Positions 51,652 to 60,717 of a stretch of 64,000 nucleotides of DNA are shown piece by piece (position 1 is the first letter of the stretch; every line of letters begins with the position of its first letter). Location of the stretch: assembly GCA_944332455.1 (NCBI GenBank), contig CALVJY010000007.1, positions 1 through 64,000 of the forward strand, written 5' to 3'. A program made the position numbers and the translations under genes. This DNA is from an uncultured Clostridia bacterium. Lineage in GTDB: Bacteria > Bacillota > Clostridia > Christensenellales > HGM11417. Under the pieces are notes generated by a model. The model had not been told where the DNA came from, did no database searches, and worked only from the letters and a program-made list of their open reading frames with translations.

Positions 51652-54199
51652 ACCAGTTCTCCCCCGAGGCCATCTGCACGGCCAGGGGCACCCGCAGCCG
51701 GACCTCGGTCATGCACTCGGACAGGATCTGCTTGACCCGCTCGCACTCGGCAAGGGGGGCCTCCACGATGAGTTCGTCATGGACCTGCAGGATCATCCGA
51801 GAATCCATGCCCTCCTGCCGGAAGCGCTCCGCCACCCGGACCATGGCCAGCTTGATGAGGTCGGCGGCCGAGCCCTGCAGGGGCATGTTCATGGCCGCCC
51901 GCTCCCCGAAGGCCCGGGTGTTGTAGTTGTTGGAGAACAGCTCGGGGATCCGCCGCCGGCGGCCGAACAGGGAACGGGCGTATCCCCGCTCCCGGGCCAG
52001 CCGCACGCACTCCTCCATGTAGGCCTTGACGGAGGGATAGGTCTCAAAATAGCGGCCGATGAATTCCTTGGCCCGCTTGACCGGAATGCCCAGCTGGCGG
52101 CTGAGCCCGAAGTCGCTGATGCCGTAGATGATGCCGAAGTTGACCGCCTTGGCCGACCGCCGCATCTCGGGGGTGACCAATTCGGGCGGCACCCCGAACA
52201 CCCGGGCGGCGGTGTCGGCGTGGATGTCCTCCCCCTCCGCAAAGGCCCGGGTCAGCACGGGATCCTCGGAAAAATGGGCCAGCAGCCTCAGTTCGATCTG
52301 GGAGTAGTCGGCCGATACTAGTATATGCAGATCGTCTTTTTTTACGAATGCTTTGCGAAGTTCCCGGCCCTCGGACTCCCGCACGGGGATGTTCTGGAGG
52401 TTGGGTTCGGCGCTGGACAGCCGGCCGGTGGAAGTCAGGGTCTGCTTGAAGACGGTGTGGATGCGGCCGTCCCGGGGGTCGATGACCGCCTTCAGCCCGT
52501 CCACATAGGTCGAGACCAGCTTGGCCACCTTGCGGTACTGCAAGATCAGGGGGATGACGGGGTGATCGTCCTGCAAGCTCTCCAGCACGTCGGCCCCGGT
52601 GGACAGCCCGGTCTTGGTCTTTTTGCCCCCCCGCAGGCCGAGCTTTTCGAACAGGACGGTCTGCAGCTGCCGGGGCGAGTTGAGATTGAAGCGCTCCCCC
52701 GCCATCTCGAACACGGCCTCGGAGGCCTCCTCCATCTCGGCGCGGTAGCGGGCCCCCAGCTCGTCCAGCACGGCCTCGTCCACCTTGAAGCCGGTCCGCT
52801 CCATGCCGAACAGCACTTTTGACAGGGGCAGCTCGATCTCCCGGTAGAGCTTTTCGAGGTCGGGATCCTGTGCCAGCTCCCCGTCCAATTTCCGGGAGAG
52901 GGCGATCAGTCCGGCCGCCGGGGCCTCGGCCGAAAGCCCCTCCTTTTCCAGGCAGTTGGCCAGATTTTTGGGGTCGGCCGAATCCCGGCAGAGGTGGTAC
53001 TTCAGGGCCAGATCCTCGGGCTGGCCCTGCCATTCCACCCCCTGCGGGGCGAGTTCGGTGAACAGGGCTTTGGCGTCAAAGGCCCACTTCAGCCGCCCCG
53101 AGCGCAGCAGGGGCCGGACCCCGCTCTGCGCGGCGTCCGCCGTCAGGCCGTCCCCCAGGAAGGTGTCGGTGATCACCACCCGGACCTCCCGTCCTTCCTC
53201 CCCCGCAAAGTGCAGGTCCTTGTCCTCGCAGTAGGCAAAATCCCCCGCGCAGGCCTCGACCTCCGCCTTCAGCGCCGCCGCGTCGGCGACCGGGACGACC
53301 TCGGGCCGGAAGGCGGGTTCGGCGGGCGGGGGCCCGGCGAAGATGGCCTCCCGCTTCAGCAGCGACCGGAACCCCAGTTCCTGAAAGGCCTTGCGGACTT
53401 CCGCCCCGAAGGGGAACTCGAAGGTCAGATCGGAAAGCTCGGCCGGGATGGGACAGTCGGTGCGGATGGCGGCCAGCGTGCGGGAGAGATAGGCCATTTC
53501 CCGGCCGGACTCCAGCTTTTCCCGCAGTTTTCCGGGAATTTCGGCCAGGTGGGCGTAGAGGTTGTCCAGGGTGCCGTACTGCTCCAGCAGGGAGAGGGCG
53601 GTCTTTTCCCCGATGCCGGGCACGCCCGGAATGTTGTCGGAGGCATCCCCCCGCAGGGCCTTGTACTCCACCACCCCGGCCGGGGTCAGATGGTAGTGCT
53701 CCTTCAAGGCGGTCTCGTCCACCTCCTCCAGGTCGGTCAGCCCCTTGCGGGTCAAAAAGACCACGGTGGTGTCGTCGATCAGCTGCAGGCAGTCCCGGTC
53801 CCCGGTGAGAATGGCGGTGCCGACCTTGAACTTTTTGGCGGCCGAGCCCAGCAGATCGTCGGCCTCCACCCCCTCCTGCTCGACCACCGTGACCTTCATC
53901 TGCGCCAGCAGCTCGTGCAGCAGGGGCATCTGGGCGGCCAGCTCGTCGGGCATGCCCTTGCGCTTGGCCTTGTAGCCGTCGTACATCAGATGGCGGAAGG
54001 TCTTGGCCCGCATGTCAAAGGCCACCATCAGATAGCGGGGCCGGATGTCCTCCAGCCCCTTTAAGAGCATATTGACAAAGCCGTAGACGGCGTTGGTGTA
54101 CTGTCCCTTGTCGTTGGTCAGCACGGGGGTGGCGTAAAAAGCCCGGTTGATCAGGCTGTTGCCGTCGATCAGCAAAAGTTCGGTCGCGGTTTCTCCCAT
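51638..54199 (-). CDS. polA: DNA polymerase I
   Basis: This 853-residue enzyme has an N-terminal 5' nuclease domain (residues 1-290, with LLIDGNSLINRAFYA, VEADDLLGSAAKKF and GDRDCLQLID). A middle 3'-5' exonuclease-like domain lacks the expected acidic DxE set and is probably inactive, as in many Firmicutes. The C-terminal polymerase domain shows motif A SADYSQIELRLLAHFS, motif B RRSAKAVNFGIIYGIS and motif C QVHDELIVEAP. It acts in repair and Okazaki-fragment maturation. The start is at MGETATELLLID, with GGGAG upstream; ten extra codons in the open frame are unlikely to be used. It is transcribed from a consensus promoter together with coaE and the transglycosylase gene. Confidence 0.96.
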   Translation of the reverse strand: MGETATELLLIDGNSLINRAFYATPVLTNDKGQYTNAVYGFVNMLLKGLEDIRPRYLMVAFDMRAKTFRHLMYDGYKAKRKGMPDELAAQMPLLHELLAQMKVTVVEQEGVEADDLLGSAAKKFKVGTAILTGDRDCLQLIDDTTVVFLTRKGLTDLEEVDETALKEHYHLTPAGVVEYKALRGDASDNIPGVPGIGEKTALSLLEQYGTLDNLYAHLAEIPGKLREKLESGREMAYLSRTLAAIRTDCPIPAELSDLTFEFPFGAEVRKAFQELGFRSLLKREAIFAGPPPAEPAFRPEVVPVADAAALKAEVEACAGDFAYCEDKDLHFAGEEGREVRVVITDTFLGDGLTADAAQSGVRPLLRSGRLKWAFDAKALFTELAPQGVEWQGQPEDLALKYHLCRDSADPKNLANCLEKEGLSAEAPAAGLIALSRKLDGELAQDPDLEKLYREIELPLSKVLFGMERTGFKVDEAVLDELGARYRAEMEEASEAVFEMAGERFNLNSPRQLQTVLFEKLGLRGGKKTKTGLSTGADVLESLQDDHPVIPLILQYRKVAKLVSTYVDGLKAVIDPRDGRIHTVFKQTLTSTGRLSSAEPNLQNIPVRESEGRELRKAFVKKDDLHILVSADYSQIELRLLAHFSEDPVLTRAFAEGEDIHADTAARVFGVPPELVTPEMRRSAKAVNFGIIYGISDFGLSRQLGIPVKRAKEFIGRYFETYPSVKAYMEECVRLARERGYARSLFGRRRRIPELFSNNYNTRAFGERAAMNMPLQGSAADLIKLAMVRVAERFRQEGMDSRMILQVHDELIVEAPLAECERVKQILSECMTEVRLRVPLAVQMASGENWYEAK

Positions 54200-54284
54200 G
54201 ATTTGTTCTCCCGGCGGGCGCCGCTTCAAAGCGCCCCGCTCTCGCGGCTTGGATCGATCTCTGGACCAAGCGCAGTTCTTTTTC

Positions 54285-54313
54285 AGTATACCCGATTTCC
54301 CTCATTTTGTCAA
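54285..54313 (-). promoter_or_regulatory. Sigma-A promoter of polA
   Basis: TTGACA (54308-54313) and TATACT (54285-54290) on the minus strand with 17 bases between. The -35 box and spacer recur 375 bp upstream without the -10 box. Confidence 0.8.
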
Positions 54314-54340
54314 GGCCGTTCCTCTATTTCGAGAGTTCTC
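54293..54340. repeat. Direct repeat copy 1 (polA promoter side)
   Basis: A 48-bp stretch that includes the polA -35 box, opening CGATTTCC and ending GAGTTCTC, recurs at 54668-54715 with a few changes. Confidence 0.75.
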
Positions 54341-54545
54341 GAAAGGGGCGCAAGAGAAAACTTCTTTTGAAAAAAGAGGTCTGAATAAGGGGAATTTCGA
54401 CAAAAATCGCTTCCTCTCACGTAGGCTCCCCTTGAAAAGAACATGCGATCCTGGAACTCCCCCTTCCTTCCCTGTCGGGAGTTCTCAAAAGGGGCGCAAA
54501 GGCAGCTTTTTTCATCAAGGGCGGTCCGAATGAGGGTGTCTTGAA
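54333..54545 (-). repeat. Dispersed repeat, two units in reverse orientation
   Basis: Two related units (about 54333-54412 and 54478-54545) share GAGTTCTC.AAAGGGGCGCAA, a T/A-rich centre and GGTC.GAAT.AGGG. Their reverse complement resembles the forward copies at 54726 and 57316. No coding frame with a ribosome site is seen. Confidence 0.6.
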
Positions 54546-54667
54546 GCGGCAAACGCCCCTTTTGCGATGCCCTTCTGAACATGTCACAATTCGGACCGCC
54601 GTTCCTGTCCGATTCGACGGGCAAGCTCTTCGGCTTGTCATGGAACGACGATTCCGGGGATCCCTGA

Positions 54668-54715
54668 CGATTTCCCGCATTTTGTCAAGGCCGTTCCCTA
54701 TTTTCGGGAGTTCTC
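54668..54715. repeat. Direct repeat copy 2
   Basis: Matches 54293-54340 nearly base for base, including TTGACAAAATG.GGGAAATCG on the minus strand, but has no TATACT at the -10 position. Confidence 0.75.
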
Positions 54716-54725
54716 CAAAAACCGC

Positions 54726-54838
54726 GTGTTATAATCAAGGGACTCCTGCGCAAAAGGAGCCGATCTCTGTCGAAATTTCCCCTGTTTAAACCTCTTTACT
54801 TCAAAAAAAATTTTCTCTTACACGCCTTTCGGGAAGTC
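54726..54838 (+). repeat. Dispersed repeat, forward copy A
   Basis: Carries TCCTGCGCAAAAGGAG (a small hairpin), GATCTCTGTC, then CCTCTTTACTTCAA and an A/T-rich tail ending near TTTCGGGAAGTCCC. About 113 bp of it match 57316-57428 with scattered changes. Confidence 0.7.
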
Positions 54839-55268
54839 CCTTCTGTTTCTTGTCCATCCGACGGCCAGACGGGAGGGAATCAGCCGGCGGACAAACTTCC
54901 GAAGTCATCGGAGTCGTTGCCATGTGAGGGCCGGAAACGCCCGTTTCCGAATCGGCGGGAACCACAGGAACGGTCAAACAGTTCGCCCAACCTTTCCGGC
55001 TGTATGCGGGAACCCCACACCCTTCCTCCAACCGCTGTTCTTTCTCTCTTTTCCGGCCTTCGCTTGCGGCCCTGACTGCACGGGGACCGGATCTTTGACG
55101 AAAATAAAAACGACTGCGCCGGACCTTAGTTCAAACGCAGCCGTTGTTGGGTTCATTAATAAAAATGCTGCCGCAAACCGAGCAGAAGGGTTGCAGATTG
55201 CGTTCTTTCAAATGCGCGGGCGAGGGAGTTTACTAAAACGTAAATGACCGAAGCCCGAGACGTGAAGA
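54839..55268. other. Intergenic region between repeats and tRNAs
   Basis: About 430 bp with no gene I can support. Plus-strand frames here lack ribosome sites and coding character. Confidence 0.5.
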
Positions 55269-55289
55269 AAGGGCGCAAGATGCGCCCTT
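55269..55289 (-). terminator. Terminator of the tRNA transcript
   Basis: AAGGGCGCA and TGCGCCCTT pair around a 3-base loop. On the minus strand they are followed by TCTTC. It lies 11 bp past the tRNA-Val CCA end. Confidence 0.65.
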
Positions 55290-55299
55290 ATCCTCGGTT

Positions 55300-55374
55300 T
55301 GGTGGACAATGAGGGATTCGAACCCCCGACTTCTTCCATGTGAAGGAAGCACTCTCCCGCTGAGTTAATTGTCC
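55300..55374 (-). tRNA. tRNA-Val (anticodon CAC)
   Basis: The minus strand folds as a full cloverleaf: acceptor GGACAAT/ATTGTCC, anticodon stem CTTCC/GGAAG with loop TTCACAT (anticodon CAC), T-arm GGGGGTTCGAATCCCTC, and an encoded CCA. It lies 30 bp downstream of tRNA-Ala and shares its transcript. Confidence 0.93.
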
Positions 55375-55404
55375 GCAGGATCGGATGTTTCATCCGATGA
55401 TGTC

Positions 55405-55480
55405 TGGTGGAGATAAGGGGACTCGAACCCCTGGCCTATGCATTGCGAACGCATCGCTCTACCAACTGAGCCATATCCCC
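55405..55480 (-). tRNA. tRNA-Ala (anticodon CGC)
   Basis: Minus-strand cloverleaf with acceptor GGGGATA/TATCTCC. The third pair is G3-U70, the alanine identity element. The anticodon loop is TTCGCAA (anticodon CGC), the T-arm CAGGGGTTCGAGTCCCCTT, and CCA is encoded. Confidence 0.93.
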
Positions 55481-55665
55481 AAAATCAGTAAGTCTATTTT
55501 AGCAGATTTTCCGGAAAAAAGCTACCATTTTAAGGGGCCTTTTAAAAAAAATTTTAGGAGGCGCTCTGACTCTTCTTCAAAAGACTTCCTTCCCCCACTT
55601 TAAAAGACGGCCCGTCCCCCCTTTTGCCGGCCGCCTCGCCGAAAGCAGCACCTCGCCCTCATCGT

Positions 55666-56256
55666 TTAGCCGGGAGCCTCTCTCCCTCCTCTGTCGCCCC
55701 GCCGGCCGGGGCCGTTCCTCCCCTCATCACCTTGGCGGCGACCGTTCTCCCTCCTCTGTCTCTTTCCCGGAGCCTTATTTAAAAAACCGGTTACAGCTTT
55801 TTCAATTTGTTTTCTGCTGTAATAATATCCGTTGTTGAAGATATGTTCATTTGAAATCTTCCTTACACATCTTTCTTTCGCTTCGGAAATATGATTGGCT
55901 TGTGACCCCTCAAACTCTTGTTCTAAAAATTCCTTTACTTTTTCTTTTAAAAGATCTTGCTTTCTCCTCCAAGCTATGAAATGGACAATCGAGCTGAATA
56001 TTCCGACCGCTATAAAGGCAGCGATCACCAGAAAAATGATCGTTTTGTCTGAAAAATTTTCCGGGCTGAAAAGGCATACCAGCCCTATTGCCAACAGAAA
56101 ACAACTGCCGATGATTCCAGAAACCAGCTTCCAGATAAAATACTGCCTTTTGTTCCAATAGTCTACGCAAAGCCCCATACTTCTTTCAAAACCCGATATG
56201 CAAAGCAGCACAAAGCACACCACCAAAACGGCCATTAAGCCAATAAAAGACAGCAT
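55666..56256 (-). CDS. Membrane protein of unknown function (about 196 residues)
   Basis: I do not recognise this family. The first half has three likely transmembrane helices (FIGLMAVLVVCFVLLCISGF; LVSGIIGSCFLLAIGLVCLF; IIFLVIAAFIAVGIFSSIV). A charged, helical cytoplasmic part follows (DLLKEKVKEFLEQEFEGSQA), with a very basic Gly/Arg-rich tail. The start at 56256 has GGGAG six bases upstream; ATG codons at 56262 and further upstream are alternatives. It lies among small genes and repeats right of the tRNA pair. Confidence 0.6.
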   Translation of the reverse strand: MLSFIGLMAVLVVCFVLLCISGFERSMGLCVDYWNKRQYFIWKLVSGIIGSCFLLAIGLVCLFSPENFSDKTIIFLVIAAFIAVGIFSSIVHFIAWRRKQDLLKEKVKEFLEQEFEGSQANHISEAKERCVRKISNEHIFNNGYYYSRKQIEKAVTGFLNKAPGKRQRRENGRRQGDEGRNGPGRRGDRGGREAPG

Positions 56257-56544
56257 AAGCATCTCCCATAAGACTTCCCTTATATGCACGGGCATGAAAC
56301 ACAATCTTTACAAGACTGAGTAATGAATCCCCTTCATTCCTTCACATTCCAGGCAAAAACCTAATTAACTGATTCTCCCCATATTTTCCTGAAGTTTTTT
56401 TGCATCCGTATCTCTTGTTCCATTCTTACCTCCCTCAAACATGGGGAAAAGCCTCCCTTTTCAGCCCTTGTTTCATGCCATGAGCGTGCAGATTGAGCCT
56501 CGCGGCGCTGATCGGATTTACATCGCAAATAAAGGTACGATCTG

Positions 56545-56730
56545 CTATTTCTTCTGATCCTTCCCCCTGCAAATTTGAACCAGCGACAGGATCAGAAGCA
56601 AAATCGAAGCCGCACCCATAAAAATAATTGCATACGTACGATAGACGCCCAGCCCGACTGCTATGTGCAAGATCCAAAAAACCGCGGCCACTAAATATAA
56701 TAAGATATCAAAAACACGCAAAATTTTCAT
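56545..56730 (-). CDS. Small two-helix membrane protein (61 residues)
   Basis: This unrecognised protein has two hydrophobic segments, LRVFDILLYLVAAVFWILHI and YAIIFMGAASILLLILSLVQ, with a short basic tail (GKDQKK). AAAGGG lies eight bases before the ATG, a moderate site. Hydrophobic composition across the whole frame favours a real gene. Confidence 0.5.
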   Translation of the reverse strand: MKILRVFDILLYLVAAVFWILHIAVGLGVYRTYAIIFMGAASILLLILSLVQICRGKDQKK

Positions 56731-56775
56731 CTGTAAACCCTTTATCTCAATTATAGGAAACCCGGAACGACCATG

Positions 56776-57153
56776 TTACAAAATTCTGTAGTAATAGTTT
56801 CCTTCATCATTCTTTTTCACATTTTCATCGCTGTCAAATTCAACAAAAACTTGTTCCCCGAATCGATCGAAATACCCTGTTTTTTGGAGAAAGGCGTTGA
56901 TATGATCAGTCATTTCCGTTTTATCCACGCACTCGAGTTCTTTCGCGGTTTTGTAAAAGATGAAGATCGTTGCGCTCTGCCCGAAGCAGCTGATACACCA
57001 GATCTTGAAAATGCCGGCGTATCGTTGCAGAAGGGATTTTTTCACTTTTTCCAGATACTTTTTCTGCACTGAATCGATTTTTTCGCTTTCCTTCATTCGC
57101 GTCGGATCCGAAAGCCTTTTCCCCTTGTCTTTCATCTCCCTCTCCTGTTTCAC
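56776..57153 (-). CDS. Hypothetical protein of up to 125 residues
   Basis: I do not recognise this family. The N-terminus is charged and helical (KIDSVQKKYLEKVKKSLLQR). A hydrophobic stretch follows (YAGIFKIWCISCFGQSATIF), then an alpha/beta part ending with GEQVFVEFDSDENVKKNDEG. The frame opens with GTG at 57153 (GGAGAGG upstream); ATG six codons later has AGGAG upstream and may be the true start. Composition is AT-richer than its neighbours. Confidence 0.5.
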   Translation of the reverse strand: MKQEREMKDKGKRLSDPTRMKESEKIDSVQKKYLEKVKKSLLQRYAGIFKIWCISCFGQSATIFIFYKTAKELECVDKTEMTDHINAFLQKTGYFDRFGEQVFVEFDSDENVKKNDEGNYYYRIL

Positions 57154-57315
57154 GGTTTCGCCTCTCCCCCTTTCTCTCTCTTTCTCACCATAAAACCTCT
57201 GACAAGGCCGGCCTTTCTTCTTCCGTCCCGTTCGGCTTCCGCTCTCTGCACCCCTATTCTACCACAAGATCGCCCGCTTGTCAAGGCCGGATCGCGGGGA
57301 AAATTCCGACATCGC
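57154..57315. other. Upstream flank of the small-gene cluster
   Basis: Short C/T-rich stretch ending in TTGTCAAGGCC (57279-57289), which resembles the start of the polA-side direct repeats. No gene seen. Confidence 0.4.
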
Positions 57316-57545
57316 ATGTTATATTCAGGGGCCTCCTGCGCAAAAGGAGTTGATCTCTGTCATTCCCCCTGTTCAGACCTCTTTACTTCAAGAAAAATTT
57401 TTCTTTTACATACCTTTCGAGAACTCCCTCGATGGGGAAGTTCCCGGGCCGTGCGTTCTTTTCAAAAGGGACACCACACGAAAGGGTCATTTTCTGGATA
57501 AATACGCTCATCCAAACCGCTTTTCATCTGTCACATTGCGCCCCC
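57316..57545 (+). repeat. Dispersed repeat, forward copy B and extension
   Basis: 57316-57428 matches 54726-54838, including TCCTGCGCAAAAGGAG and CCTCTTTACTTCAAG. The following 110 bp (GAGAACTCCC, then GTTCTTTTCAA) resemble the reverse complement of 54410-54480. Together with those copies it brackets the tRNA and small-gene stretch. Confidence 0.6.
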
Positions 57546-57860
57546 CCGCAAGGGATTGAATTGCGCAGCATATAAAGACAAGCCTTTTCCAAAAAGCTGC
57601 CTGAAAGAAGATTTTTTGTAAAGCAAAAATCTCGCTTCCGTCAAGCGGCGTTTCCAGATTCAAAGCCTTCCCGCTCCGGATTTTGGCCCTTTCTCGGCCC
57701 GGCCGCCTTCCCCTCCTGCCGCTCAGCTTCCCCTCCTGGCCGCTCGGTTCGTCCCTCTTTGGCCTCCCGGCTTGTCCCTCGTTGGCCCTCGGCTTCTTCT
57801 AAAATCCCCGGCTCCCTCATAGACTGTTAAAGACGGGGATCTCCCCGGAAGGAGGCGCGC
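57546..57860. other. Intergenic region upstream of the 57861 gene
   Basis: A C-rich stretch with short repeated CTTCCCCTCCTG and TTGTCCCTCGTTGG-like segments, then AAGGAGG before the gene. I could not place a convincing promoter. Confidence 0.45.
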
Positions 57861-58763
57861 ATGAAATTTCTGGCCGAGGCCGGCTTTGCGGGTCAGCTGT
57901 GGCTGAACGGACAAGTTCTCGGAAGGCTGCCCGGCCCGGTCTCCTTCGAGGCGGTCCCGCCCTTTGAGCTGGAACTCAAGCCCCGGAACGGCTGCTGCGC
58001 CCTGATCGGCCTGGACGGCGGCTCCGAACTGAGCTCCGAAAGCCCCCTGGTGCGGATCCGGGAATACCCGGAGGGCGCTGAACTTTTTTTCTTTTCGCCC
58101 GCGCTCCCGGTCATGCCCCCCTTTGTCTGCGAACAGCAGACCTTCGGCGGGGGCGAGGCCCGTCTGCTGTTCGACGGGCGCTTCCACCTGCGGGCCGAGA
58201 GCGACCGCTTTGTGCACACCCTGACCCTGCCCCCCGGGATCGCCGAGCCCGAACTGTTCACCCTCGGCTCGGTCGCCTGGGTGAAGGCCGCCGACGGAGA
58301 GGCCCTTTACGTGGGGGCGGTGGGCTTTACGGACGATTTCCACACCCTGGCCGACGGCCCCTTTCTGAGCTGCGAGCGGAGCGACAAGGTCCTGACCCTG
58401 ACCCGGAAACTTCCCGATCAGCTGGGGCATCTCGTAACCCTGAACCTCGGCCCGGACGCCTCCCTGACCCGCACGGCCAAGCCCACCCGGGCCAAGAAGA
58501 TCGACCTGCTGCCGCTTCGGCTGCTGCCTTTCCTCTTCCTGGAGTGCCTGGCATGCGGAGACGACGAAAACGCCGCCGCCTGCTGCCTGCCCCACCTGGA
58601 TCCGGCGGCCGTCCGGCGGTTTTTGGGGCCCTTTGACCAAGTGACCGAAAACCCCTTCGGGGAGGGCCTTTACATCTGCGACAGCCAGACTTCCGGCCGG
58701 GCCGTCCGCGTGGAGGTCGAATACTCGGGCGGCAAGATCGCCAACCTGCTGACAGAGGACTGA
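57861..58763 (+). CDS. Conserved-looking protein of unknown function (300 residues)
   Basis: I do not recognise this family. It is a soluble, beta-rich protein without a signal peptide, opening MKFLAEAGFAGQLWLNGQVL. It has a second part with LPLRLLPFLFLECLACGDDE, and it ends near TSGRAVRVEVEYSGGKIANL. GGAAGGAGG lies five bases before the ATG. It is one of only two plus-strand genes in the window. It converges on the GH112-GH130-mutase operon, with the repeat-built hairpin at 58773-58877 between them. Confidence 0.7.
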   Translation: MKFLAEAGFAGQLWLNGQVLGRLPGPVSFEAVPPFELELKPRNGCCALIGLDGGSELSSESPLVRIREYPEGAELFFFSPALPVMPPFVCEQQTFGGGEARLLFDGRFHLRAESDRFVHTLTLPPGIAEPELFTLGSVAWVKAADGEALYVGAVGFTDDFHTLADGPFLSCERSDKVLTLTRKLPDQLGHLVTLNLGPDASLTRTAKPTRAKKIDLLPLRLLPFLFLECLACGDDENAAACCLPHLDPAAVRRFLGPFDQVTENPFGEGLYICDSQTSGRAVRVEVEYSGGKIANLLTED

Positions 58764-59092: not shown

Positions 59093-60717
59093 GAAAAACT
59101 TTTCCGGACCGCGTTCATGACGAGCGCGGACAATTCCGTCAGGCGCGCCTCAGCCTCGCGGGCGGTCCCGGCCTTCGTCTGAAAATAGAGTTTGAGCTTG
59201 GGCTCGGTGCCGCTGGGGCGAAGGGTGATCTTTTCTCCCCCGCTCCGGAATTGGATGACATCGCTTGCGGGCAGGCCGTTCAGGCCTTTTTGATAATCCG
59301 TGCGGACAAAGCCTTTCAGCCCCAGGGGCAGATCCTCGCCGCGGATCTTTTTCATGACCGCCGCCATGCGGGCCGCCCCGTCCGCGCCCTCCGCGCTCAG
59401 GGAAAACAGGGCGGTGCGGAAAAAACCAAAGCGCTCGGACAGCTCCCCAAGCACCTGCAGCGGGGTCTTTTCCCTGGATCTGAACCAGGCGCAGGCCTCG
59501 GTCAGCATCAACGCAGCCGAGACCGCGTCCTTGTCCCGGACGTGGCGGCCGACCAGGTAGCCGCAGCTTTCCTCCAGCCCCATGATGAAATTGGGGATCC
59601 TGTCCATCTCCTCCCCGATATACTTGAACCCCGTCAGCACCTCCCGTACGCAGACGCCGAATTCCCCGGCGATCTCCGTCACCAGGTCCGAGGTGACGAT
59701 GGTCTTGACGACGGTGGGGTCTTTCCCCAGCAGGCCGAGTTCCCGCTTCCGCTCCAGGAGATAGAACAGCAGCAGGCAGCCGGTCTCGTTGCCGTTGAGC
59801 AGCACATACTCCCCCTCTCCGCGGACGGCCGCGCCCAGCCGGTCGGCGTCCGGGTCGGTGGCCAGCACCAGATCGGCGCCCTGCCGTTCGGCCTCCCGCA
59901 CGGCCAGGGCCATGGCCTCGGGCCGTTCCGGATTGGGATAGGGACAGGTGGGAAAATCCCCGTCCGGGGCCTGCTGTTCGGCGACGACCCGGACCTGTCC
60001 GGCCTTCCCTGCCAGAATGTCGGGCACAAAGCCCATCCCGGTACCGTGGAGGGGGGTGTAGACCACGGAGGGCCGCTCCCCCTCCCCCGGGTCATACAGG
60101 GACAGCGCCCGCACGGCCCGCAGAAAGGCCTCCCGGACCTCCCCGTCCGCCATGAGGATGCGGCCGGGATCCGGCGTGAAGGGGCAGAAATAGTCAAAGG
60201 TCCGGATCCGCTTGGTGATCTCCGCGGCCGCCTCCTCGGTGATCTGACAGCCGCGGGCGTTGTAGACTTTGTAGCCGTTGTACGCCCTGGGGTTGTGGCT
60301 GGCCGTGATCACAATCCCGAGATCGGCTTTGAAAAAGCGCACGGCAAAGGAGAGGACGGGCGTGGGCACGGGTCCCGGGAACAGGCGGACGGTGATCCCC
60401 TGGGAGGAAAGGATCTCCGCCGCCCGCAGGGCAAAAAGAGGGGAATTTTTCCGGGTGTCAAAGGCGATGACTGCGGAGGGCGCGTCGGACAGGCTCTTCA
60501 GATAGTCCGCCACCCCGAAGGTGGCCCGGCTCACCGTGTAAAGATTCATGCGGCACGGCCCCGCGCCCATGACGCCGCGGAGCCCGCCCGTCCCGAAGCT
60601 CAGTTCGCCGTCGAAGCGCTCCCCGACGGCGGCCGGATCCGACGCTGCGGCCAGCAGCTCCTCCCGGATCCCGGGATCCTCCGCTTGGGTCAGCCAGGCC
60701 TGAAGATCCGCCCTCAT
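59089..60717 (-). CDS. Phosphosugar mutase (phosphoglucomutase/phosphomannomutase)
   Basis: This alpha-D-phosphohexomutase has about 542 residues. LSFGTGGLRGVMGAGPCRMN lies near residue 43, the phosphoserine loop VITASHNPRAYNGYK near 140, the metal loop ATDPDADRLGAAV near 285, and the substrate loop LEESCGYLVG near 380. RPSGTEPKLKLYF near 500 binds phosphate. It interconverts hexose 1- and 6-phosphates. The start is placed at the ATG overlapping the GH130 stop (ATGA); a start 9 bp upstream is possible. In this operon it would pass the sugar 1-phosphates made by GH112 and GH130 into glycolysis. Confidence 0.93.
   Translation of the reverse strand: MRADLQAWLTQAEDPGIREELLAAASDPAAVGERFDGELSFGTGGLRGVMGAGPCRMNLYTVSRATFGVADYLKSLSDAPSAVIAFDTRKNSPLFALRAAEILSSQGITVRLFPGPVPTPVLSFAVRFFKADLGIVITASHNPRAYNGYKVYNARGCQITEEAAAEITKRIRTFDYFCPFTPDPGRILMADGEVREAFLRAVRALSLYDPGEGERPSVVYTPLHGTGMGFVPDILAGKAGQVRVVAEQQAPDGDFPTCPYPNPERPEAMALAVREAERQGADLVLATDPDADRLGAAVRGEGEYVLLNGNETGCLLLFYLLERKRELGLLGKDPTVVKTIVTSDLVTEIAGEFGVCVREVLTGFKYIGEEMDRIPNFIMGLEESCGYLVGRHVRDKDAVSAALMLTEACAWFRSREKTPLQVLGELSERFGFFRTALFSLSAEGADGAARMAAVMKKIRGEDLPLGLKGFVRTDYQKGLNGLPASDVIQFRSGGEKITLRPSGTEPKLKLYFQTKAGTAREAEARLTELSALVMNAVRKSFS

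Follow-up and report, generated by a model that had tools for sequence, protein, structure and literature searches.

A miniature inverted-repeat element that probably targets sigma-A promoters in an uncultured Clostridia bacterium

Promoter-targeted transposition in bacteria has been described for a few autonomous families of mobile elements (PMC3942029). TnGBS and ISLre2 elements and part of the ISKra4 group, all with Mutator-type transposases, insert ahead of sigma-A promoters, 15–17 bp upstream of the −35 box (13–17 bp in one legend of the same source), and the TnGBS/ISLre2 type is characterized there by direct repeats of 8 or 9 bp and by inverted repeats (IRs) of 18–39 bp with a terminal C (PMC3942029). 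Both orientations occur where the IRs are symmetric, and the promoter is perhaps found via RNA polymerase or sigma-A, by analogy with yeast Ty3 (PMC3942029). Also, an ISLre2 member with a 9-bp duplication has been reported (PMC8024623). Here we describe a family of short non-coding repeats found in a 64,000-nucleotide stretch of the genome of an uncultured Clostridia bacterium (hereafter the window), where they lie beside polA and bracket two tRNA genes and three small genes. The family is a miniature inverted-repeat transposable element (MITE), and its copies probably obey the same kind of landing rule.

Known prokaryotic MITEs such as Correia, ERIC, MITEAba12 and BrickBuilt are, like the present one, short, non-coding, dispersed, intergenic and bounded by terminal inverted repeats (TIRs) (PMC10969869). 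In that review they are described with internal promoters or an intergenic preference, not with a fixed distance upstream of a target −35 box, and its main text, dating from 2024, names ISLre2 and ISKra4 nowhere (PMC10969869). We found no description of a MITE with such a landing rule in the open-licence literature, a result that argues only weakly for its absence. Such targeting is itself a known rule; what is added here is a miniature, non-autonomous form, insertion in two orientations, stacking of copies, and presence in other taxonomic families.

The element family and its landing site

The genome (2.35 Mb, 94% complete; the window lies on its contig C7) carries a dispersed non-coding family with a unit of ~130 bp. 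A genome search with a sequence model built from 11 copies returned 17 matches at E ≤ 1e-3, four of them inside the window; a fifth window unit (57437–57524, + strand) scores E = 0.0016 and stays outside this set. Full copies used in the analysis measure 113–135 bp. Mechanical open reading frames (ORFs) run across the units, yet frame-breaking indels separate the copies and no transposase gene lies inside. The TIRs are imperfect, ~23 bp long and end in G.../...C as outer bases; the ends of the youngest copies read GGGAGTTCCCACATCGCGTGTTA and GGGAGTTCCCGAAAGGCGTGTAA, and the TIRs are nearly symmetric (GGGAGTTCCC-N6-CGTGT).

Target duplications and other counts were made over 12 copies, one of them from another genome (G108, see below), leaving out C30, the partial C6p, the second unit on C13, C11, C34, C18, the second-type units of the window and weaker matches. 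With the ends free to move by ±3 bp, a 9-bp target duplication matches at all nine positions in 5 of the 12 copies and at eight or more in 7. The direct repeats are exact at C26, C3a, C6, C2 and G108 and carry one mismatch at C4 and C17; the flanking repeats of the other five copies share 4–6 bases of 9. Random site pairs given the same freedom reached eight of nine in 0.96% of 2400 cases. A single base, within an A run, distinguishes copies C26 and C3a, which sit at separate loci and are both flanked by a perfect 9-bp duplication; movement was therefore recent. The sequence-only reading had called the repeats MITE-like and had proposed a genome-wide search for further copies. The search did find them, and the TIRs, the 9-bp duplications and the dispersed near-identical copies without a transposase gene bear out the name: the window repeats are copies of a MITE.

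Promoters are throughout sequence predictions, accepted at a score of at least 12 bits in flanks scored up to 400 bp. Outward-facing sigma-A promoters at this threshold lie 16 bp from C26, C4, C6 and G108, 15 bp from C3b, 17 bp from C7a and 12 bp from C7c. A full promoter at 12–17 bp is thereby present in 7 of the 12 copies, six of them at 15–17 bp, against an expectation of 0.014 for the 24 ends; the expectation derives from a background density of 20 promoters per 205,014 strand-bases of this genome, and the 12–17 bp range was picked after the data had been viewed. The outward promoters of the remaining copies lie at 36 bp (C13), 74 bp (C2), 257 bp (C17) and 392 bp (C7b), and C3a has none. 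When the flanks were divided into 10-bp bins out to 400 bp, seven outward promoters fell at 10–19 bp and at most one in any other bin. No inward promoters were present in the scored flanks (up to 400 bp; one G108 flank measured 147 bp).

A −35-like word, TTGAHN, stands 14–17 bp from one end in 10 of the 12 copies, and seven more such words occur in the other 96 positions of the 0–99 bp flanks. For this count, which had no shuffled control, some ends were re-set by eye (the C13 start by 22 bp, the C7c start by 2 bp and the G108 end by 3 bp), and the promoter and duplication counts keep the first boundaries, with the C13 promoter at 36 bp and that of C7c at 12 bp. The promoter or the −35 word is faced by the left end in C26, C3a, C4, C7c, C13, C3b and G108, and by the right end in C6 and C7a. 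The flanks of the copies have little in common beyond the promoter words, and the duplicated 9 bp sit between element and promoter; for these reasons the promoter belongs to the target and not to the element. The genes behind the promoters are unrelated, and include polA, MatE, BcrAD, flavin reductase and GmrSD genes as well as unknowns.

Copies in the window and in other genomes

In the window, the right end of copy C7a (131 bp; 54331–54461, − strand; E = 2.1e-30) lies upstream of its predicted target, the polA promoter TTGACA-17-TATACT (54285–54313, − strand), at 17 bp from the −35 box. Copy C7c (132 bp; 57297–57428, + strand; E = 7e-28) lies upstream of the predicted small-gene operon promoter TTGACA-17-TAGAAT (57256–57284, − strand), at 12–14 bp from its −35 box, the left end of the copy being uncertain. 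Behind each of them a diverged unit of a second type is stacked, at 54477–54584 (− strand; E = 1.7e-4; outer end undefined) behind C7a, and at 57437–57524, its far end likewise undefined, behind C7c. The earlier description of related units in reverse and forward orientation was right, and its spans 54333–54545 and 57316–57545 each fused a main-type copy with a second-type unit. It did not mention the inverted-repeat ends, the 9-bp duplication, the outward sigma-A promoters at their near-constant distance or the 52-bp direct repeat described below. The remaining main-type copy, C7b (135 bp; 54706–54840, + strand; E = 8.9e-32), stands 17 bp from an orphan TTGACA, a copied polA −35 region without a good −10 box. 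This orphan word belongs to a 52-bp direct repeat (54668–54719, 87% identical to 54293–54344) that represents a decayed second copy of the polA −35 region and of the first bases of a MITE end. The repeat exceeds the length of a target duplication, and simple insertion does not explain it.

Stacked units occur in three places, at 54331–54584 and 57297–57524 in the window and at 60075–60322 on contig C13; the remaining copies in the genome stand singly. The two units of the C13 stack are nine bases apart (TTTTTCCCG), and a slightly altered copy of these bases, TTTTTCCG, lies on the promoter side. Repeated insertion at a fixed point would leave stacks of the kind seen behind C7a, C7c and C13, a reading that draws on these three places. 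Beside the C13 pair, past the match at locus L074 (G000, from about position 60322), the TIR core also recurs in short tandem repeats (TTTCGGGAGTTCCCATTTCCC, TTTCAGGAGTTCCCATATTTC and TTTCTGGAGTTCCCG).

The present genus consists of this genome alone, and the three other genomes of the family gave no match at E ≤ 0.001. Further, at least 2 of the 395 other genomes of the order contain one clear copy each, G108 (E = 4e-32) and G127 (E = 4e-31). This is a lower bound, since the order search, with its stricter filters and a ceiling of 8 scored candidates per genome, counted 8 of the 17 matches of the present genome. The two copies (G108:C23, family f25; G127:C17, family f3) come from families different from that of the source and share a 365-bp segment that is 98.9% identical. 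With gaps excluded, the G108 copy shares 94% identity with C3a. The G108/G127 copy is flanked by the duplication ACAACAACG and lies 16 bp upstream of TTGATT-17-TATAAT, and a GmrSD-type gene adjoins it on the G127 contig. At both loci (L120 and L121) a GC-rich palindrome, GGCGGGTGCTTGAATAAACGAGCGGC...CACCCGCC, stands beside the MITE and perhaps represents another repeat family.

Among the matches listed, 16 weak ones (E = 4e-4 to 0.01) fall in 15 other genomes, including G001 of the same family. On inspection and rescoring none of the 16 had both ends, and they were left uncounted; two, L124 and L131, retain a right-end-like CTTTCGGG. Some of the 16 may be decayed relatives. L124 (G290:C30:15559–15653) is perhaps such a relative with a different spacing. 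Searches of plasmids and phages returned no copies, and searches of viral contigs no exact motifs.

Mechanism, partner transposase and competing explanations

Taken together, the copies are probably those of a promoter-targeting, non-autonomous element moved in trans by a DDE transposase and landing upstream of the sigma-A −35 box. Such a transposase would move the ~130-bp MITE and make the 9-bp target duplication, while its integration complex would select sites 14–17 bp, most often 16 bp, upstream of the −35 box; the duplicated 9 bp would thus lie about 7–16 bp upstream of it. Insertion would take place in either orientation, as the near-symmetric ends predict, and any newer copy arriving at an occupied promoter would come to lie between that promoter and the older copy, producing stacked units. 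That so small an element (130 bp) follows the rule suggests that the ends, together with a transposase supplied in trans, suffice for targeting. The element would then serve as a minimal donor for studying how a bacterial transposase finds promoters, and offers a way to read promoters, perhaps decayed ones too, from unannotated genomes.

In its distance to the target (TTGAHN at 14–17 bp in 10/12 copies, full promoter at 12–17 bp in 7/12), its 9-bp duplication, its ~23-bp imperfect TIR and its terminal C, the MITE agrees with the p-MULT 3 and p-MULT 4 elements. Because it obeys the same landing rule, we infer that its transposase would belong to the prokaryotic Mutator-type enzymes, either p-MULT 3 (TnGBS/ISLre2) or p-MULT 4 (ISKra4), and that this enzyme would read the promoter via RNA polymerase or sigma. 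ISLre2 elements (p-MULT 3, PF06782/UPF0236-type) share with the MITE the 15–17 bp rule, the 9-bp repeat, the terminal C and Firmicute hosts (PMC3942029, PMC8024623), whereas they are autonomous, usually insert in one orientation and have another TIR sequence. TnGBS elements likewise insert 15–17 bp upstream of sigma-A promoters (PMC3942029); unlike the MITE, they are integrative and conjugative, occur in streptococci and have a transposase of their own. As in the MITE, nearly symmetric IRs and insertion on either side, upstream of sigma-A promoters, are described for some members of the ISKra4 group (p-MULT 4), whereas these elements are autonomous and the phyla listed for p-MULT 4 in the same source do not include Firmicutes (PMC3942029).

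Candidate partners were sought in several ways. A scan of the genome for the TIR pattern (at most 3 mismatches) gave 20 matches, against 9 for a reversed control pattern; 17 of the 20 were assigned to known or truncated copies, and those on C9, on C12 and at C13:63733, with three mismatches each, look like noise. An autonomous copy with the same TIR was absent from the 20 matches. In the ORFs near solo ends, no transposase was recognised by eye from the first residues, no library search having been made. The PF00872 profile had no match in the genome, its control being positive in 6 of 14 genomes. The PF06782 profile, which we take to represent the ISLre2 transposase family, had none either, and all 14 control genomes were silent.

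Across the order, PF06782 is present in 13 of 396 genomes at E ≤ 0.001, 10 of them over the cut-off. Five near-complete loci with flanks (reading frames of 460–499 codons) agree with the ISLre2 landing rule: a promoter of 12.5–14.1 bits starts 17 bp past the end motif, that is, 16 bp past the presumed terminal C, a figure that rests on right ends read by eye from the shared motif. The other 13 of the 18 matches are fragments, contig-end or weak matches with unscored distances. The right end common to the five loci (L170–L174), ...ACTTGACAC...C, takes the form ATTGACAC in L173 and has a TTGACA word within it. Two parentages were considered and set aside. One was the ISLre2 family proper, the TIRs differing in a comparison confined to the five loci of the order and not extended to more distant members; the other was IS256, to which a GTGTAA motif had pointed, given the lack of a PF00872 match in the genome, the near-constant distance observed and the likely random insertion of IS256 (PMC3942029).

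Several observations weigh against promoter targeting as set out above. Copies C2 and C17 are misfits, the former with its promoter at 74 bp and a TTGATC at 19 bp that has no clear −10 box. C3a and C7b carry the −35 word without a good −10, C13 fits only after its end is re-set and otherwise stands at 36 bp, and C11, whose end is guessed, has its promoter at 47 bp. Promoter scoring found no strong promoter at C30, C34 or the second C13 unit, and the promoters as a whole are predicted from the sequence alone. The C7a stack has a spacer of 15 bp, an inexact fit to the repeated-insertion model. Both contigs with the G108/G127 copy end nearby, so a binning error is possible, and an empty site for this insertion was not found, either by an exact pattern in viral contigs or by searching the flank against plasmids and phages. 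In the weak match L124 a right-end-like CTTTCGGG lies about 2 bp from TTGACA-17-TACAAT, which would contradict the rule if L124 is a member of the family. In addition, a partner transposase was not found in the 94%-complete genome (PF00872 and PF06782 were searched, ISKra4-type transposases were not), and the TIR of the MITE is unlike the right ends read at those five ISLre2-like loci. It is conceivable, though on balance unlikely, that the element represents an unrecognised further lineage, whose transposase acts on ends unlike those of the ISLre2-like elements of the order while keeping the same 16-bp rule, and whose stacking arrays record promoter use over time.

The placement of the copies could also arise without targeting, if an ordinary MITE inserted anywhere and the survivors were those at harmless sites just upstream of promoters. 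MITEs are normally intergenic (PMC10969869), and C2 and C17 do not stand at 14–17 bp, both of which such a history would accommodate; selection alone, however, should not yield the one distance seen in the 10-bp bins, and the lack of inward promoters in the scored flanks and a rule that holds in both orientations and in another genome make this account improbable. Most full copies abut a predicted promoter, which would suit a domesticated regulatory or RNA element (an attenuator, a small RNA or a mobile enhancer) kept for regulating the adjacent promoter, and in the young copy C3a the TIRs pair into a long hairpin (z = −4.9, and −4.1 on the other strand). Against this, the promoter may be faced by the left or the right end, the target genes are unrelated, and the four other copies folded against shuffles gave z values of only −0.2 to −2.4. 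The predicted consensus fold has a two-sided change in 1 of 12 pairs and a covariation term of −0.2, which is near nil, and tRNAs alone reached the Rfam gathering score in 53500–58500. A structured RNA is thus unsupported, and we regard domestication as very improbable. The small hairpin that had been described as conserved in the repeats, TCCTGCGCAAAAGGAG, was not confirmed as such: 4 of the 11 aligned copies carry it exactly, and the others have changes in it.

A composite element with the outer units as its termini and the tRNAs and small genes as its cargo is hardly credible, even granting that these units are inverted, that the DNA between them is AT-richer and that the island genes were not found beside polA in the relatives examined. 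The 9-bp flanks outside the outer main-type pair differ (CTCTATTTC and TCGATGGGG) and form no duplication, a comparison that applies to the main-type pair, the end of the 57437 unit being undefined. Further, a separate promoter accounts for the position of each outer unit, and the other copies in this genome stand alone.

The tRNA and small-gene island

The elements bracket, and do not include, tRNA-Val(cac) (55300–55374, − strand), tRNA-Ala(cgc) (55405–55480, − strand) and three small ORFs of no confident family (55666–56304, 56545–56730 and 56776–57153, − strand). The sequence-only reading had recognised these features correctly: both tRNAs are real, and the three small genes lie in AT-richer DNA, with about 40–47% GC compared with about 60–70% in the flanking genes. 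Its suggestion that the repeats carried in, or flank, an accessory island is unsupported, given that each outer main-type unit adjoins its own predicted promoter and the outer flanks mismatch. With each outer unit just upstream of its own predicted promoter, the interval that holds the tRNAs and small genes is bounded by two promoters chosen independently of each other. Most likely the island was bracketed by accident and not carried by the repeats; nothing links its arrival to them, and they do not explain its origin.

The window polA is 40–49% identical, over best segments, to six named Clostridia-type records, and 35 and 48% identical to two records labelled Bacteroidetes. Of 14 polA loci in other genomes, 12 have coaE close to polA and seven have a lytic-transglycosylase-like gene there. 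None of these 14 loci (0.1 to about 15 kb of upstream DNA) showed a homologue of gene 57861 or of any of the three small genes, and neither tRNA-Val nor tRNA-Ala at any of the 30 polA loci scanned in other genomes (30 of 37, mostly with 1.5-kb flanks), six of which have a tRNA-Leu(caa). The sequence-only reading had named two findings that together would refute it, a lack of other copies in the genome and conserved synteny of the island; the first is contradicted by the 17 matches, and the second was not seen at these loci. The island therefore looks particular to the present lineage at the polA site. None of the three small ORFs has a family match above the curated cut-off, 55666–56304 having been scanned from an internal start. 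The ORF at 56545–56730 (− strand) encodes 61 amino acids of membrane-like character, with a weak DUF4870 match (E = 0.006) under the cut-off, and is flanked by one other orphan ORF on each side.

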